Source of the DNA: an uncultured Bacteroidia bacterium
GTDB lineage: Bacteria; Bacteroidota; Bacteroidia; Bacteroidales; UBA932
Assembly: GCA_902798975.1 (NCBI GenBank)
Contig: CADBYT010000004.1
Span: 1-64,000 of the forward strand
Length of the DNA: 64,000 bases
Direction: 5' to 3'
The notes beneath the pieces were generated by a model. The model made no database searches, was not told the DNA's origin, and worked only from the letters and a program-made list of their open reading frames with translations. Position 1 is the stretch's first letter, and the number at the start of each line of letters is the position of its first letter. The position numbers and the translations under genes are program-made. Shown one piece after another: positions 3,833 to 39,915 of this stretch.

Positions 3833-5759
3833 TTACTGCTCGTCAGGCGTGTTGCCGTAGTCCGGCTGAGGGCCGGTCGGGCCACCCTGCGGGCCGCCCT
3901 GCGGACCCTGAGGTCCGGCTTGGGGACCGCCCTGTGCGGCTTTGGCCATATCCTCGGACGCGGCGTGCCAAGCAGCCTCGAGGGCGGCGTTGGCGCTGTC
4001 GATCGCCTCGATGTTCTTCTCGTCGACGGCCTTCTTCAGGTCGGCGCAGGCGGCCTCGATGGCGGAACGCTTGTCGGCCGGGATCTTGTCGCCGTACTCC
4101 TTGAGGTTGCGCTCGGTCTGGAAGACCATCGCGTCGCCGTTGTTCAGCTTGTCGGCGCGCTCTTTCTCCGCCTTGTCGGCGGCCTCGTTGGCTTTGGCCT
4201 CGTCACGCATGCGCTGGATCTCGGCGTCGGACAGGCCGCTGGAGGCCTCGATGCGGATGTGCTGCTCCTTGCCGGTGGACTTGTCCTTCGCGGACACGCT
4301 CAGGATACCGTTGGTATCGATGTCGAAGGAGACTTCGATCTGCGGGATGCCGCGCGGGGCCGGGGCGATGCCGTCGAGGTGGAAGATGCCGATCTGCTTG
4401 TTGTCCTTGGCCATGGGGCGCTCGCCCTGCAGGACGCGGATCTCGACGGACCAGGACGCGGATCTCGACGGACGGCTGGTTGTCGGCCGCCGTGGAGAAG
4501 ACCTGCTCCTTGTGGACCGGGATGGTGGTGTTGGACTCGATGAGCTTGGTCATCACGCCGCCGAGGGTCTCGATACCGAGGGACAGCGGGGTCACGTCGA
4601 GCAGCAGGACGTCCTTGACGTCGCCGGCGAGCACACCGCCCTGGATGGCGGCGCCGATGGCGACCACCTCGTCCGGGTTCACGCTCTTGTTCGGCTCCTT
4701 GCCGAAGAACTCCTTGACCAGCTCCTGAACCTTCGGGATACGGGTGGAACCGCCGACGAGGAGGACCTCGTCAATCTCGGAGGCGCGCAGGTGGGCATCC
4801 TCGAGGGCCTTGCGGCAAGGCTCGATGCTGCGGCGGAAGAGGTCGTCGCAGAGGGCCTCGAACTTGGCGCGGGTCAGCGTCTTCACCAGGTGCTTCGGCA
4901 TGCCGTCCACCGCCGTGATGTACGGCAGGTTGATCTCGGCGCTGGCGGCGTTGGAGAGCTCGATCTTGGCCTTCTCGGCCGCCTCCTTGAGGCGCTGGAG
5001 GGCCATCGGGTCCTTCTTCAGGTCGATGCCGCCGTTGTCGGTCGCAAACTCGCGGGCCAGCCATTCGATGATGGCCTGGTCGAAGTCGTCGCCGCCGAGG
5101 TGGGTGTCACCGTTGGTGGACTTGACCTCGAAGACACCGTCACCGAGCTCCAGGATGGAGATATCGAACGTACCGCCGCCCAGGTCATAGACGGCGACCT
5201 TCATGTTCTTGTTCTTCTTGTCGAGGCCGTAGGCCAGGGCAGCGGCCGTCGGCTCGTTGATGATGCGCTTGACATCCAGGCCCGCGATCTTGCCGGCCTC
5301 CTTGGTGGCCTGGCGCTGCGAGTCGGAGAAGTAGGCCGGGACGGTGATGACCGCCTCGGTGACCTCCTGGCGGAGGTAATCTTCGGCCGTCTTCTTCATC
5401 TTCTGGAGGATGATCGCGGAGATCTCCTGCGGAGAATAGAGGCGTCCGCTGATGTCGACGCGCGGGGTGTTGTTCTCGCCGCGGGCCACTTTGTACGGCA
5501 CGCGGGCGATCTCCTTGTCCACCTGTTCATAGGTCTCGCCCATGAAGCGCTTGATGGAGAAGATCGTGTTGTGAGGGTTGGTAATGGCCTGGCGCTTGGC
5601 GGGGTTGCCCACCTTGCGCTCGCCATTCTCCGTGAAAGCGACGACGGACGGCGTGGTGCGCGCGCCTTCGTCGTTGATGATAACGGTCGGCTGGTTGCCT
5701 TCCATCACGGCCACGCAGGAGTTCGTGGTGCCGAGGTCAATTCCGATGATTTTTCCCAT
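3833..5759 (-). CDS. dnaK: Chaperone DnaK (Hsp70), reading frame broken by a 22-bp tandem duplication
   Basis: The N-terminal part begins [20 protein letters not shown] and carries the ATPase motifs [12 protein letters not shown]-like [13 protein letters not shown] and [16 protein letters not shown]. The frame is lost near 4450, giving a nonsense tail that stops at 4203. The rest of the substrate-binding domain and the Gly/Gln/Pro-rich tail continue in another frame from about 4414 to 3833 ([20 protein letters not shown]). An exact 22-bp tandem repeat at 4430-4473 causes the shift; removing one copy gives a continuous 634-residue DnaK, the normal length. The true state (assembly error or mutation) cannot be told from the sequence. 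It is monocistronic with a terminator. Confidence 0.93.
4430..4473. repeat. Exact 22-bp tandem duplication inside dnaK
   Basis: Positions 4430-4451 and 4452-4473 are identical (unit starts CAGGACGCGGATCTCG). Because 22 is not a multiple of three it shifts the dnaK frame within the beta-domain segment that normally reads VLQGERPMA. The restored protein has no gap or extra residue, so one copy is surplus. Confidence 0.97.
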
Positions 5760-5790: not shown

Positions 5791-5810
5791 GCCTGCCACT
5801 TCCGGCAGGC
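5791..5810. promoter_or_regulatory. Inverted repeat upstream of dnaK, candidate operator or leader hairpin
   Basis: GCCTGCC-6 nt-GGCAGGC lies 32-51 nt before the dnaK ATG. No CIRCE element (TTAGCACTC-N9-GAGTGCTAA) is present and no TAnnTTTG box was found for dnaK. The site is therefore a candidate heat-shock control element; its role is inferred from position only. Confidence 0.35.
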
Positions 5811-5850
5811 CGTATGGGTATCATCAAAACCTTTGCCAGCACCTTTTTGC

Positions 5851-5863
5851 TGACAAATTGTCA
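5851..5863. promoter_or_regulatory. Palindrome TGACAAATTGTCA between dnaK and the HTH gene
   Basis: A perfect 6+1+6 palindrome overlaps the stop codon of the HTH gene and lies about 95 bp upstream of dnaK. It could be a regulator-binding site for dnaK. No known factor was matched. Confidence 0.3.
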
Positions 5864-6121
5864 AATAATGCCAAGTTCCGTGGCGCGGCGGAGCATGTCG
5901 GAGACGTTTTTGACCTCCATCTTGGCGTAGATGCGCTGGCGGTGGGTATTGACCGTATGGACGGACAGGAAGGTGCGTTCGGCGATCTCGGCGGCCTTGA
6001 GGCCCTCGGCGCTGAGGCGGATGATCTGGATTTCCCGCTGGCTCAGGCCGATGTCGGCGATCTTGCGGGCGCGGACCAGCAGCGACTCCTCCACATAGGC
6101 GGCCACCTTCTCGTTCATCAT
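5861..6121 (-). CDS. LuxR-type helix-turn-helix protein, N-terminus uncertain
   Basis: The C-terminal 65 residues form a GerE/LuxR DNA-binding domain: LSQREIQIIRLSAEGLKAAE, then IAERTFLSVHTVNTHRQRIY and a final helix. The frame stays open upstream to about 6616, but that extension is repeat-derived low-complexity sequence, so the start is placed at the MMNEKV methionines (6121). Most LuxR-type regulators have an N-terminal receiver or sensory domain, and none is visible; the residues DGYASKLEELV just upstream might be the remnant of one cut off by the repeat block. Target genes are unknown. Confidence 0.6.
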   Translation of the reverse strand: MMNEKVAAYVEESLLVRARKIADIGLSQREIQIIRLSAEGLKAAEIAERTFLSVHTVNTHRQRIYAKMEVKNVSDMLRRATELGII

Positions 6122-6170
6122 GCCGGGATTGGCCACCAGCTCCTCCAGCTTCGAGGCATAGCCGTCCGAA

Positions 6171-6375
6171 GGGCTCGCTCCTCGCCCGCGGCGGCCCGGG
6201 GCGGGCAGGACCTGGCAAGGTCCCGGGAGCACTGAAGGCTTATTTCGCTCCTGGAAACCATTATTTCCGCACTCCGGGAGCACTGGAGCCCTTCTCCGCT
6301 CCCGTAAACCTTCTCCCAAAAGTAAAAATGTAAATGTCGGGCAGAAAAAGGCGGGGTTTTCTGGCCGGTCCCCTG
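6171..6375. repeat. Tandem double-hairpin element, copy 1
   Basis: Two hairpins share one geometry: arms 6223-6230/6247-6254 and 6274-6281/6298-6305, each an 8-nt arm around a 16-nt loop, joined by a 19-nt linker, so the unit repeats every 51 nt. Stems use CCGGGAGC with GCTCCTGG or GCTCCCGT. Flanks GGGCTCGCTC and GGTCCCCTG are shared with copy 2 at 38383-38681. Stem sequences differ between copies while pairing is kept. Confidence 0.75.
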
Positions 6376-6453
6376 TTATTTGGGGGGACCTGGCAGGTTT
6401 TGCCGGGGAATCCTGGCCGGTGGCGGGAGATTCGCCAGTCGAGCGTTGGCGTG

Positions 6454-6499
6454 TGGAGGGCGGAGCTGGAATTGGTTTTCCGGCAAACTTGTCCGAAAC
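6454..6499 (+). repeat. Dispersed hairpin element (TTTTTCGG family), copy 1, 3' arm lost
   Basis: The 5' arm GGAGGGCGGAGCTGGAATTG and the loop region with GGCAAACTTGTCCGAAA match the copy at 36622-36690, but the right arm ends early and runs straight into the G-run/C-run element. It appears to be a truncated or invaded copy. Confidence 0.8.
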
Positions 6500-6548
6500 G
6501 AAGTGACGCAGGGGGTCCGGGGGGGGGGGGGGGGACCCCCCCCGGGCA
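6497..6548 (+). repeat. G-run/C-run palindromic repeat, copy 1
   Basis: AAGTGACGCAGGGGGTCC is followed by sixteen G, one A and eight C. The same leader and a shorter G6-AACG-C8 hairpin occur at 29890-29930. The long homopolymer may be misjudged in length in an assembly. Confidence 0.75.
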
Positions 6549-6558
6549 TTTGAACCCA

Positions 6559-6613
6559 CGGCGAATGACGGAGGGAGGGCGGCGAATGACGGAGAGAGGC
6601 CGGCGAATGACGG
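6559..6613 (+). repeat. Three CGGCGAATGACGG units, 21-bp period
   Basis: Identical 13-mers start at 6559, 6580 and 6601. The same 13-mer occurs twice just after the next gene (7364 and 7387), and related sequences lie inside the sigma factor and ftsK genes. The units contain half of the inverted repeat ATTCGCCG/CGGCGAAT. Confidence 0.9.
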
Positions 6614-6623
6614 CAATATTTGC

Positions 6624-6631
6624 TATCTTTG
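6624..6631 (+). promoter_or_regulatory. -7 promoter box for the pseudouridine synthase gene
   Basis: TATCTTTG matches the Bacteroidetes -7 consensus and ends only 4 nt before the ATG at 6636, so the predicted transcript has almost no leader. Confidence 0.55.
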
Positions 6632-6635
6632 TGGT

Positions 6636-7373
6636 ATGGAGTACCGGGAACTGACAAAACAGGAGTTCGAGGATCTGCAGGGGCGGATCCTGTATGAGGA
6701 CAACCATCTGCTGGTGGTGTGCAAGCGCGTGGGCGAGATTACGCAGGGCGACAAGACGGGCGACGAGTGCCTGACGGAAGCCTACAAGGCCTTCATCGCC
6801 CAGCGGGACGGCAAGCCGGGCAAGGTCTTCCTGGGCCTCCCCCACCGCCTGGACCGCCCCGTGAGCGGAATCTGCCTGCTGGCCAAAACCTCCAAGGCCC
6901 TGGAGCGCCTGACGGCCGCCTTCCGCGACGGCAGTGTCCACAAGACCTACTGGGCCCTCTGCTGCGCGAGGCCGGAGCCGCCTGAAGGCCACCTGGAAGG
7001 CTGGCTGAACCGCAACGAACAGCAGAACAAATCCTACATTGTGGCGGACGGCGCGGCCCCCAAGCCCGGACGCTACCCCGAAGCCAAGCTCGCCAGACTC
7101 AACTACCGCTACCTGCGCAGCACCGACCGCTACCACCTCGTGGAGGTGGACCTGCTGACCGGCCGGCACCACCAGATCCGCTGCCAGCTCGCCCACCTGG
7201 GCTGCCCGATCAAGGGGGACCTGAAATACGGTGCGCCGCGCTCCAACCCCGACGGCGGCATCTGCCTCCATGCCCGCCGCATCTGCTTCACGCACCCGGT
7301 CCGCAAAGAGGAGATGACGGTCGAGGCGCCCGTGCCGGCGGGATGGAGATTCGCCGATCGAGTCGGCGAATGA
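6636..7373 (+). CDS. RluA-family pseudouridine synthase
   Basis: A 245-residue enzyme that converts uridine to pseudouridine in rRNA or tRNA. Catalytic motif II reads LPHRLDRPVSGICLLAKTSK (about residues 67-86) with the active-site aspartate in HRLDRPVSG. TGRHHQIRCQLAHLGCPIKGD is the conserved C-terminal motif. There is no N-terminal S4 domain, so the substrate cannot be named from sequence. The last residues (RFADRVGE) and the stop codon come from the ATTCGCCG/CGGCGAAT repeat, so the C-terminus may have been reshaped by repeat insertion. A TATCTTTG box 4 nt upstream supports the start. Confidence 0.93.
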   Translation: MEYRELTKQEFEDLQGRILYEDNHLLVVCKRVGEITQGDKTGDECLTEAYKAFIAQRDGKPGKVFLGLPHRLDRPVSGICLLAKTSKALERLTAAFRDGSVHKTYWALCCARPEPPEGHLEGWLNRNEQQNKSYIVADGAAPKPGRYPEAKLARLNYRYLRSTDRYHLVEVDLLTGRHHQIRCQLAHLGCPIKGDLKYGAPRSNPDGGICLHARRICFTHPVRKEEMTVEAPVPAGWRFADRVGE

Positions 7374-37038: not shown

Positions 37039-37959
37039 ATGAAACGATTCTTCACCCTTCTCGCGACGGCGCTGCTCGCCGTCCTTCCCCTCTCCGCCGC
37101 CCAGACGACGGAACCCGTCAAGAACGAGACCAAGGAATACAAACTCAGCGGCTTCTCCGGCCTGGAGGTGTCCTGGATCTACAAAGTCGAGCTCACCCAG
37201 TCCTCCCGCTACGCCGTCAGTGTGGAAGCGCCTGATTTCCTGATGGAATATGTCCTTGTCGAAGTCCGCAACGGCCGCCTCATCCTCGGTGTGGGCGAAA
37301 TGCCGAACGACGTCCGCCGCCGTGTCGAGAAGAACGGCAACCACTACGATGTCCGCGCGTATGTCAGCATGCCTGAGCTGAGCTCCCTCCAGGCGTCCGG
37401 CGCATCCAGGCTCACGGTCCGGGGCGAGTTCTCCACGCGGAAGCCCTTCGAGCTGAGAGCCAGCGGCGCCTCGCAGGTGCGTGACCTCTCCGTGAAGGCC
37501 CCCTCGGCCGACATCGAGGTCTCCGGCGCTTCGAAGGTGTTTGACCTGAACGGCAAATTCGACAAGTTCTCCCTCCGCGGCAGCGGCAGCGCGAACATCA
37601 CGATGGCCGGCGATGCCAAAACGGTCGATCTGCGGCTCTCCGGCGCCTCAAAACTTTCTCTCAAGGGCAAACTCGGCGACGTGGACCTGCAGGGTTCGGG
37701 CGCTGCCAACACCGAACTCGATGGCAGCATCGAATCCCTTACTGCCGAAGGCTCCGGCTCCACCAAGCTGCTCGCCAACCGGGCTCCCGCCCGACGCGTG
37801 AGGATCAGCCTCTCCGGCGCCTCCAACGCCATGATCGAAGTCCGCGAAGAGCTCAGCGTCAACCTCTCCGGCGCCTCCAAGCTCAACTACCATCCGGGCC
37901 CGGCCCTGCGCATCACGAGCCAGTCCATTTCCCGCGCCTCCACCCTCTCCAGCTTCTAG
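37039..37959 (+). CDS. GIN domain (DUF2807) auto-adhesin-like protein
   Basis: A 306-residue exported protein (signal MKRFFTLLATALLAVLPLSA). Residues 40-300 are DUF2807: repeated strands such as LQASGASRLTVRG, LRASGASQVRDLSV, IEVSGASKVFDLNG and NLSGASKLNYHPG give a beta-helix with SGAS turns. DUF2807 proteins are envelope-located and of unclear function. It is the third gene of the ECF sigma cassette and ends at a strong terminator, so it may be the cassette's main product or a target of it. Confidence 0.9.
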   Translation: MKRFFTLLATALLAVLPLSAAQTTEPVKNETKEYKLSGFSGLEVSWIYKVELTQSSRYAVSVEAPDFLMEYVLVEVRNGRLILGVGEMPNDVRRRVEKNGNHYDVRAYVSMPELSSLQASGASRLTVRGEFSTRKPFELRASGASQVRDLSVKAPSADIEVSGASKVFDLNGKFDKFSLRGSGSANITMAGDAKTVDLRLSGASKLSLKGKLGDVDLQGSGAANTELDGSIESLTAEGSGSTKLLANRAPARRVRISLSGASNAMIEVREELSVNLSGASKLNYHPGPALRITSQSISRASTLSSF

Positions 37960-38033: not shown

Positions 38034-38847
38034 ATCTAATTATCAATCAATAACATACTGAAAACAGCAATCCTGCGGCACGTCCTTTTTCCTTGTGAGC
38101 TATAATCAATTGAATAATGGTAGATTACAGTTTCACATTACCCCATTTTCGTGGGGAGTATAAATCCATAACAACCTAACACACAATTACTTCCAGCTCA
38201 CAGCATTTTTCCATTATTGGGACTGGGACTGGAGCCACCTCCCATTACGGTAGTCGGCGCCTCCCGCCAGGTGTTTGATGTGCCGATCGGGCAGTTGGCA
38301 GAACTGGATGTGCTTGGGGGCACCGCCGCCGGAATATACGCTTTCCGGCGGCTGCCGCAGGACGCTGCGCGAGCTCTTCGGTGGGCTCGCTCGCGCCCGC
38401 GGCTGCCCAGGCGTGAGCGGGGCGGGCAGCTACCACACTGGCCGGCAACGAGCACTCCGCGTCGAGCCCTCAAAAGCTCGAAAGCGGAGATCGCTCGTAA
38501 CCGCCGGGCGCGCGCCAGGCGGTGGTGCCAGGTCCTGCCCACCCTCGACACTTCCCCCCCCCAGGGGCTAAAACACCCCAATTTGCCCCTGGCAACCAGA
38601 TTTTGAAGTCACCAGGGGCGCTGAGGCTTTGTTTTGCCCCTAGCGGACAGAAATAGACCGGTTTTTCTGGCAGGTCCCCTGATTCGCCGGTCAGAGCCGG
38701 TTTGGAGCGAAGCGAAGTCCGCACCAGCGGACCGGCCGGCCCCGGGTATTTGGCCAAAGGTCAAATACGGAAAGGGGTTTATGGCCGCAAGGGGTTACAG
38801 GGGGCGGAGCCCCCTTCATAGATAGGTCCGGGGAGCCCCCCGTCATG
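38034..38847. other. Gene-free region with repeats and an AT-rich patch
   Basis: About 810 bp. The first 170 bp are AT-rich with a small CCCC/GGGG hairpin near 38140-38160. Then 38217-38380 is GC-rich and open on both strands (plus-strand reading includes GASRQVFDVPIGQLAELDV) without a family match; it may be a decayed gene. The tandem double-hairpin element (38383-38681) and further short repeats fill the rest. No RNA gene was recognised. Confidence 0.65.
38383..38681. repeat. Tandem double-hairpin element, copy 2
   Basis: Hairpin arms lie at 38561-38568/38585-38592 and 38612-38619/38636-38643. Loops are 16 nt and the linker is 19 nt, exactly as in copy 1 at 6171-6375. Stems are CCAGGGGC with GCCCCTGG or GCCCCTAG, so the stem sequence has changed on both sides relative to copy 1. 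Shared flanks are GTGGGCTCGC on the left and TTTTCTGGCAGGTCCCCTG on the right. Confidence 0.75.
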
Positions 38848-38904: not shown

Positions 38905-39915
38905 CTATTTTGCGTCCATCGCCTGGCAGGCGGTGATGGCGATCATCTTGTAGACGTCGTCCACCGAGCAGCCGCGGCTGAGGTCGTTGACCGGCCGGGC
39001 AATACCCTGGAGGATGGGGCCGATGGCGTCGGCCTCACCGAGACGCTGGATAAGCTTGTAGGCGATGTTGCCGACCTCGAGGTTCGGGAACACCAGGACG
39101 TTGGCGTTGCCGGCGATATCGGAGCCGGGGGCCTTCTTCTTGCCCACGGACGGCACCAGGGCGGCGTCAGCCTGGAGCTCGCCGTCGACCTTGAGGGCCG
39201 GATCGAGCTGCTTCGCAAGGGCGGTCGCCTCGACCACCTTGTCCACCACCTCATGCTTGGCGGAGCCCTTCGTGGAGAAGGACAGCATCGCCACGCGCGG
39301 ATCGGCGAAGCCGGCCACGCTCTTGGCGGTCTGCGCCGTGCAGACAGCGATCTGGGCGAGCTGCTGGGCATCCGGCGCCGGGGTCACGGCCACATCGCCG
39401 ATGACCAGCACGCCGTTCTCGCCGTACTGCGGGGTCTTGGTGATCATCAGCATGGCGCCGCTCACGCAGGTGATGCCGGGGGCGCACTTGATGATCTGGA
39501 GGGCCGGACGAAGGGTCTCGCCGGTCGTGGAGAGCGCACCGCTGATCTGGCCGTCGGCGTCGCCGCTCTTGATGATGAGGCAGCCGAAATAGAGGGGATC
39601 CAGCACCGTCTTGGCTGCGATCTCGGGCGTCATACCCTTGTTCTTGCGCAGCTCATAGAGCAGATTCGCATACTCGGCGGTCTTTTCGCTGGTCGCGGGA
39701 TCGATGATCGTAGCCTTGTCGATGTGCTTCAGGCCGAGCTCGGCGGCATAGGCGAGGACTTTCTCGCGATTGCCGATCAGGATGATGTCGGCGAGGCCGT
39801 CGGCAATGGCGCGGTCGGCCGCCGTGATGGTACGCTCCTCGAAGGATTCCGGGAGCACGATGCGCTGCTTGTTGGACTGGGCACGCGCGATAATCTGGTC
39901 AATGAGGGTAGACAT
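38905..39915 (-). CDS. pta: Phosphate acetyltransferase
   Basis: A 336-residue short-form Pta that converts acetyl-CoA and phosphate to acetyl phosphate. It begins MSTLIDQIIARAQSNKQRIV and has IVLPESFEERTITAADRAI and SGDADGQISGAL, characteristic of the PTA_PTB fold. No N-terminal DRTGG or BioD-like extension is present. It is 9 bp downstream of ackA; together they make acetate and ATP. A strong terminator follows. Confidence 0.96.
   Translation of the reverse strand: MSTLIDQIIARAQSNKQRIVLPESFEERTITAADRAIADGLADIILIGNREKVLAYAAELGLKHIDKATIIDPATSEKTAEYANLLYELRKNKGMTPEIAAKTVLDPLYFGCLIIKSGDADGQISGALSTTGETLRPALQIIKCAPGITCVSGAMLMITKTPQYGENGVLVIGDVAVTPAPDAQQLAQIAVCTAQTAKSVAGFADPRVAMLSFSTKGSAKHEVVDKVVEATALAKQLDPALKVDGELQADAALVPSVGKKKAPGSDIAGNANVLVFPNLEVGNIAYKLIQRLGEADAIGPILQGIARPVNDLSRGCSVDDVYKMIAITACQAMDAK

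Follow-up and report, generated by a model that had tools for sequence, protein, structure and literature searches.

Hairpin pairs of near-constant spacing in an uncultured Bacteroidales bacterium: atypical REP-like doublets with a probable link to RAYT-type transposases

REPINs in Pseudomonas fluorescens are doublets of REP sequences that occur with RAYTs; the pairs are mostly inverted (93%) and lie at a distance of 71 or 110 bp (PMC3116915). TnpA-REP of Escherichia coli needs a GTAG motif (PMC8266576). Published atypical RAYT classes also occur without GT[AG]G, and for subclass 2.6 RAYTs of Bacteroidetes 'atypical secondary structures' were found by hand (PMC6006769). Within the open PMC papers covered, no description of hairpin pairs with a fixed 51-nt period in Bacteroidales was found. 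The elements reported here are very probably non-autonomous, atypical REP doublets (REPIN/BIME-like) of RAYT-type HUH transposases.

The window analysed is a stretch of 64,000 nucleotides from an uncultured Bacteroidia bacterium (Bacteroidales; UBA932; contig CADBYT010000004.1, positions 1 to 64,000). Two loci, S1 and S2, each hold two hairpins of an 8-16-8 layout (arm, loop, arm) joined by a 19-nt linker, with a period of 51 nt. Sequence and script agree on this, and the four hairpins of the preliminary description, with 8-nt arms, 16-nt loops, the 19-nt linker and the 51-nt repeat, were recovered in coordinates and geometry. Watson-Crick pairing involves 7 of 8 positions in three stems and 8 of 8 in one (script). 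Two compensated pair changes, at stem positions 3 and 6, distinguish the S1 and S2 stems, as had been claimed for a change of GGGAGC versus AGGGGC on both sides. Under a lenient rule, which asked for 7 or more of 8 pairs and for a second hairpin 49-53 nt further on, the window gave two tandem pairs; 20 dinucleotide shuffles gave none or one each, with one pair in five of the 20. A single hairpin pair is weak evidence because lenient pairs turn up in these shuffles; a single sighting is suggestive, and the reality of the window's pairs is settled by further copies of the family. The features of both loci are given below with their source.

6171..6216, + strand: end of module A, contains GGGCTCGCTC (DNA search, repeat comparison)
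6223..6254, + strand: S1 doublet, hairpin a, arms 6223-6230 / 6247-6254, 16-nt loop (sequence, script, alignment)
6255..6273, + strand: S1 doublet, 19-nt linker (sequence, alignment)
6274..6305, + strand: S1 doublet, hairpin b, arms 6274-6281 / 6298-6305 (sequence, script, alignment)
6338..6421, + strand: S6 unit, hairpin-rich, contains GGTCCCCTG (DNA search, covariance model R1)
38383..38411, + strand: part of a module A copy (DNA search)
38418..38544, + strand: module B, long imperfect palindrome, repeated in the genome (DNA search, fold)
38561..38592, + strand: S2 doublet, hairpin a (sequence, script, alignment)
38593..38611, + strand: S2 doublet, 19-nt linker (sequence, alignment)
38612..38643, + strand: S2 doublet, hairpin b (sequence, script, alignment)
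38644..38681, + strand: incomplete S6-type unit that follows the S2 doublet, 84% identical to 6338-6375 over 38 nt

DNA searches from both loci revealed a patchwork of dispersed units, each locus being a mosaic. The sequences GGGCTCGCTC and GGTCCCCTG, formerly regarded as shared flanks, are present at both loci, but both belong to other repeat units. The distance of GGGCTCGCTC from the hairpin pair differs between the loci (52 versus 178 nt) because both sequences sit in units that recur without the pair. An extent of 200-300 bp had been proposed; the conserved element measures about 91 nt, and the longer span joins unrelated repeat units. Module A (window 38330-38412 and other contigs) is a second dispersed palindromic unit, which ends in GGGCTCGCTC..GCCCGCGGC and is joined to different partners in different copies. 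Copies of module B match in their aligned parts at 94% (C22), 93% (C5), 91% (C7), 89% (C13) and 85% (C14), and its DNA fold yielded a z of -3.5. A blastn comparison of modules A and B with the fetched RAYT loci gave no match at 1e-3. A short ATTCGCCGGTC..GCCGGCGAATGACGG hairpin repeat occurs at 6559-6613 and 38679-38700 of the window and in many places of the genome (many matches of 19-20 nt).

Both window doublets lie outside the neighbouring genes; three of the four neighbours were run, all with Pfam support. The S2 copy sits between gene ends, those of an ORF (37039-37959, +) and of a phosphate acetyltransferase gene (38905-39915, -). Window positions 5861-6154 (-) encode 97 C-terminal residues of a LuxR-type regulator; its gene is interrupted at the start of the S1 mosaic. 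The LuxR-type frame of the relative G005 comprises 545 aa, of which only residues 449-545 match the window (6154-5864); the rest of the gene was not found in the window. Insertion with deletion, or a contig misjoin at the repeat, may explain the break. An ORF at 4203-5759 (-) presumably starts as DnaK, judged by its appearance; its last part is unlike DnaK, possibly due to an assembly frameshift. A promoter and terminator scan of 5800-6700 yielded nothing at the S1 doublet.

The assembly of origin (G000) comprises 2.09 Mb in 39 contigs and is 71% complete. Nine doublets excised from it in register gave an ungapped alignment over 91 columns, from which the covariance model R1 was built. A search of the genome and its relatives with such a model had been suggested in the preliminary description. 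In the own genome, R1 detected 18 separate places at E<=0.01, the nine model members included, counted after hand merging of both-strand and overlapping matches. Under stricter filters it matched 15 of 36 genomes of the same genus and none of the 24 genomes that represent other families of the order. The 91-nt geometry is kept in 15 of the 18 own places, the others being C5:13872 (94 nt), C5:63968 and C12:43221. The stems fall into S1 (GGGAGC), S2 (AGGGGC) and a third type, GGGCAC, present at C9 and C5. In 15 own rows both hairpins of a pair have stems of one type, with differences of one or two letters at most (by eye).

As in REPs and REPINs, a short palindrome is repeated and dispersed within one genome and organized in doublets. 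The GT[AG]G foot of those families was found in 0 of 100 foot windows (25 doublets, both strands), and CGTC in six. Because the S1/S2 family occurs without this foot, its members are classified not as canonical REPs but as REP-like doublets of an atypical kind that belong to a divergent RAYT group. The likeness to Pseudomonas REPINs comprises the palindrome pair as unit, dispersal that is presumably intergenic, a family-fixed spacing and a nearby RAYT (here for sister repeats), as well as clusters and insertions beside older copies (PMC3116915). In contrast to the REPIN distances of 71 or 110 bp, the spacing here is 51-52 nt across unlike stem families, the foot is missing and copies are few (18 places). 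REPIN pairs are inverted in 93% of cases (PMC3116915), whereas the stems here are self-complementary, and tandem and nested folds fit equally. The BIME mosaics of E. coli share with the present loci the mosaic of hairpin units and a single-strand HUH transposase; however, E. coli REPs need GTAG and a bulge (PMC8266576).

Covariation was evaluated in A4, a set of 25 chosen doublets of exactly 91 nt, 15 from the own genome and ten from relatives; matches of other length (e.g. in G004, G011, G027, G036 and on the 3' side of L204) and numerous weaker matches are excluded. Double changes affect 10 of 16 pairs versus 6.1 in shuffles (2 of 500 as high), doubly changed cells number 49 versus 14.7 (0 of 500), and the covariation score is 0.344 versus 0.153 (0 of 500), with 0.064-0.151 for slid partners. 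Paired cells amount to 89.3% versus 78.7% in shuffles and drop to 31-51% with slid partners. Further pair types are not raised (20 versus 18.1; 91 of 500 shuffles). In the nine own copies alone, 14 doubly changed cells contrast with 5.3 in shuffles (0 of 500), and four pairs have double changes versus 2.5 (78 of 500). The preliminary description would have been contradicted by a larger set of copies without an excess of compensatory changes; in A4 the excess is present in pairs, cells and score. The covariation supports the folded form, though not as independent proof: each cell stands for a sequence rather than an event, and the model that collected the set already contains the stems. For pairing between loops, the count matches the null (221 versus 220.9), and loops do not covary with each other. 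In A4 rows such as L031, L046 and L048, loop sequences are seen in both orientations with respect to stem and linker (by eye), which resembles an inversion of loops. A single nested hairpin was considered as an alternative to two small hairpins; with 353 versus 357 of 400 cells and self-complementary stems, both forms fit equally and are not separable. RNA folding of the doublets exceeds that of shuffles on both strands (z -3.3 to -6.8).

RAYT-like genes are present in the own genome. PF01797 gave two weak matches, each in an ORF of about 290 aa with hairpins nearby. At L062, GATGCGACCCC hairpins stand on either side of the gene; at L061, a tandem hairpin pair follows it. The profile A1, built from these two ORFs, revealed five RAYT-like genes in the own genome, 22-64% identical among themselves. 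At 1e-6 it matched 32 of the 37 genomes that belong to the genus, the own one among them, with up to 12 matches in one genome, and 0 of 24 others. In 93 aligned RAYT-like proteins the HUH/Y1 site characteristic of RAYTs is conserved (His 99%, His 99%, Tyr 100%); the median length is 297 aa, the HUH-Tyr distance 57, and about 180 residues follow the Tyr. NCBIfam REP_Tyr_transpos was the top match in seven of nine RAYTs tested, four at E<=1e-5 and three weak, and two had no NCBIfam match; the best score of the nine, 40.4 bits, lies below the curated cut-off of 80 bits for NF047646. Pfam Y1_Tnp matched two of seven RAYTs tested, both just under the cut-off, and was absent from L203 and L206. A sequence search of the PDB (A5 query) reached E 0.98 at best, which is chance.

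The predicted structure of the L203 protein (pLDDT 76) has 4er8, a REP-associated tyrosine transposase bound to a REP hairpin, as best PDB fold match (E 1.2e-3, prob 1.00; TM 0.55 on the target, rmsd 3.0). Ranks 2-16 are held by IS608, ISDra2 and Sulfolobus transposases, with TnpA of IS608 and ISDra2 next after 4er8; no match in this search reached E<=0.001. A Y1 fold is indicated for the RAYT-like proteins, at the modest E and pLDDT of this model. RAYTs are common across the phylum, NF047646 being found in 111 of 148 genomes at 1e-8. TnpA-Y1 subclass 2.6 (RAYT group 5) resembles the present system in its occurrence in Bacteroidetes, its NH[LIV]H motif, and a RAYT flanked by non-GT[AG]G structures with copies elsewhere in the genome (PMC6006769). 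However, subclass 2.6 proteins have 179 aa and a median HuH-Y distance of 82 (PMC6006769), versus medians of 297 aa and 57 here.

Hairpin pairs were sought de novo as two similar-stem hairpins, 30-80 nt apart, within 450 bp of the RAYT gene at 93 loci. These comprise the five own genes, 29 returned by the A1 profile search and 59 picked from its list; more A1 matches exist beyond them, and L148 held no RAYT and was dropped. Pairs of any spacing were detected at 39 of the 93 loci. The best flank pair was 49-54 nt apart at 29 loci, or at 24 of 88 without L143-L147, which had been picked because R1 matches lay near and all of which count among the 29. No such pair was found in shuffled flanks (single letter shuffles; 0/93) or inside the gene (0/93), and at 500-950 bp from the gene six of 93 loci had any pair and one had a pair at 49-54 nt. 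The spacing is 50-54 nt in 39 of 51 flanks with a pair, 51 nt in 18 flanks and 52 nt in 14, and ten loci carry a 49-54-nt pair on both sides. Stems are dissimilar between RAYTs, and loop lengths range from 4 to 24 nt; the spacing hardly varies. Three or more tandem hairpins at 51-52 nt lie beside the RAYT genes of L199, L194 and L154.

Ten of the 93 loci have other spacings only. Those of 73-75 nt (L176, L190, L201) and 62 nt (L187) belong to one clade, while 64 nt (L189) and 74 nt (L158) occur elsewhere in the RAYT tree, which was read by eye and without support values. At 54 loci no hairpin pair was found; these have degraded copies, lone hairpins (as L062) or no hairpins at all. Of 70 RAYT loci outside the genus, one had a pair at 49-54 nt and no 51-nt peak appeared (spacing range 30-120 nt); RAYTs of 266-327 aa are present at 20 of these loci, the ends of some ORFs (94-136 aa) are uncertain, and the L246 frame spans 584 aa. 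TIRtrons are similar in that RAYT-like genes are flanked by non-GTAG repeats, some with dispersed families; their TIRs, however, are long terminal inverted repeats (PMC3733652), whereas short hairpins are paired here at a fixed period.

In relatives, RAYTs of one clade have sister doublets of S1 and S2 on either side. R1 scored 49 and 28 bits on the flanks of L143 (= L203, MAG RGIG5001, roe deer rumen). A genome scan with A3 yielded ten related RAYT loci, of which four (L203, L204, L205, L206) have R1 doublets on both sides (49.1 to 20.6 bits, better strand); the other six gave no R1 match above 12 bits. The RAYTs of L203-L205 are 91-100% identical and that of L206 57%; the four flanked loci represent about two independent cases because L203-L205 are close kin. 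The sister doublets have S2-like stems in L203-L205, L203 carrying GGGGGC stems and an S2-like linker, and S1-like loops in L206. The L206 doublet, with the loops ACCAGAGGCCAATTTT and ACCAGGGGCCGTTTTT on stem GTGAGC, is close to the S1 copy C1:43281 (loop ACCAGAGGCGATTTCT, stem GGGAGC). No RAYT with exact S1 or S2 stems at its flanks was found, nor was an L203-clade RAYT in the own assembly, where a second profile returned only the same five genes. These five are 22-27% identical to the L143/L203 RAYT and have other hairpins beside them. The absence of an S1/S2 RAYT is weak evidence because the assembly is 71% complete; the missing transposase may lie in the unassembled part or may have been lost.

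The orphan state of S1/S2 has a precedent in S3. This family (GGGGAAGGTC, loop 15, spacing 75) is present in the own genome at C10, C26 and, in part, where contig C13 ends; the S3 copies seen, two of which sit at contig ends, have no neighbour among the five own RAYTs. In a relative, the RAYT L176 is adjoined by an S3-like pair with the same stem, loop length and spacing. The S6 unit leads to a RAYT of the own genome: 6338-6420 is 82% identical to sequence that begins directly after the stop codon of the RAYT-like gene L094:1480-2367 (G000:C24:17310-18197). Because of this position of the S6 copy, the GGTCCCCTG part of the former 'flank' is itself a RAYT-adjoining repeat. R1 scores 19.5 bits on the copy adjoining L094; the pair detector does not list S6, which is outside the 29.

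The data establish the repeat family, its geometry, the covariation, the association of doublets with RAYT-like genes and the catalytic residues of the latter; each repeat family apparently has a single-strand DNA-cutting transposase of its own. Cutting, mobility and a reading of the spacing by the protein are inferred. In the proposed mechanism, a RAYT-type HUH/Y1 transposase for single-strand DNA would act in trans on the hairpin pair of 51-nt period as its substrate. The hairpins would fold when the strand is single, as in replication. The cognate transposase would bind the stem of its own family, gauge the distance to the second hairpin, cut and rejoin. Doublets would spread in this way into gaps between genes and beside older doublets, leading to mosaics, and stem and transposase would change together, which would be the covariation seen. 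The first of two suggestions made earlier, a 'mobile structured repeat', has gained the RAYT association and a name, RAYT-associated REP-like doublet, while movement is presumed. The second, a 'small RNA', is not supported: Rfam at the gathering threshold gave 0 matches, the copies sit in mosaics, and stems vary by RAYT gene. Because different RAYT genes have different stems beside them, and the close RAYTs L203-L205 have theirs in common, single-stranded DNA rather than RNA is pointed to as the probable folded form.

A role as RNA elements kept for the host, either transcription terminators or mRNA 3'-end stabilisers, is improbable. Such roles have been proposed for REPs (PMC3733652), folding exceeds shuffles on both strands, and the S2 copy sits between gene ends; however, no U run directly follows either doublet, and similar-stem pairs at this spacing beside transposase genes are far above the controls. 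The terminator scan of 5800-6700 predicted two sites versus 1.0 in shuffles, neither of them the doublet and one falling in the S6 unit. Still less probable is an origin from a conventional insertion sequence without relation to RAYTs, of which the elements would be a MITE-like remnant. The elements are small, non-coding and dispersed and have inverted-repeat character, yet sister doublets lie on both sides of RAYT genes in four of ten loci, and the own five RAYTs diverge widely, unlike IS copies. In the sequence and profile comparisons made here, the elements did not turn out to be one end of a known insertion sequence, an outcome that would have counted against the preliminary description, although the partner enzyme belongs to the IS200/IS605-related HUH superfamily. 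That ordinary GC-rich palindromes were fixed in their spacing by a few duplications, as structure without function, is hardly credible: the chance pairs in window shuffles are set against several own stem families, many unlike stems in the genus, the narrow spacing of the flank pairs, and the stem covariation.

The proposed assignment to RAYT-type transposases brings together, in one genus, many divergent RAYT-like enzymes, private stems and a near-constant spacing in nearly a third of the examined loci, with the S1/S2 family and its sisters lacking the GTAG tag. The coevolution of enzyme and hairpin target can be traced clade by clade, and a reading of the spacing by the protein is directly testable. 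Tentatively, the genus might run many parallel private transposase-hairpin pairs, in which the enzyme reads two hairpins with a built-in ruler and the stem serves as a changeable key. The ruler, in this equally speculative reading, would be set to about 51-52 nt, nearly five turns of DNA, in most clades and to 73-75 nt (62 once) in another. If true, the genus would hold single-strand DNA cutters that act on two sites, are orthogonal to each other and have diversified in nature.
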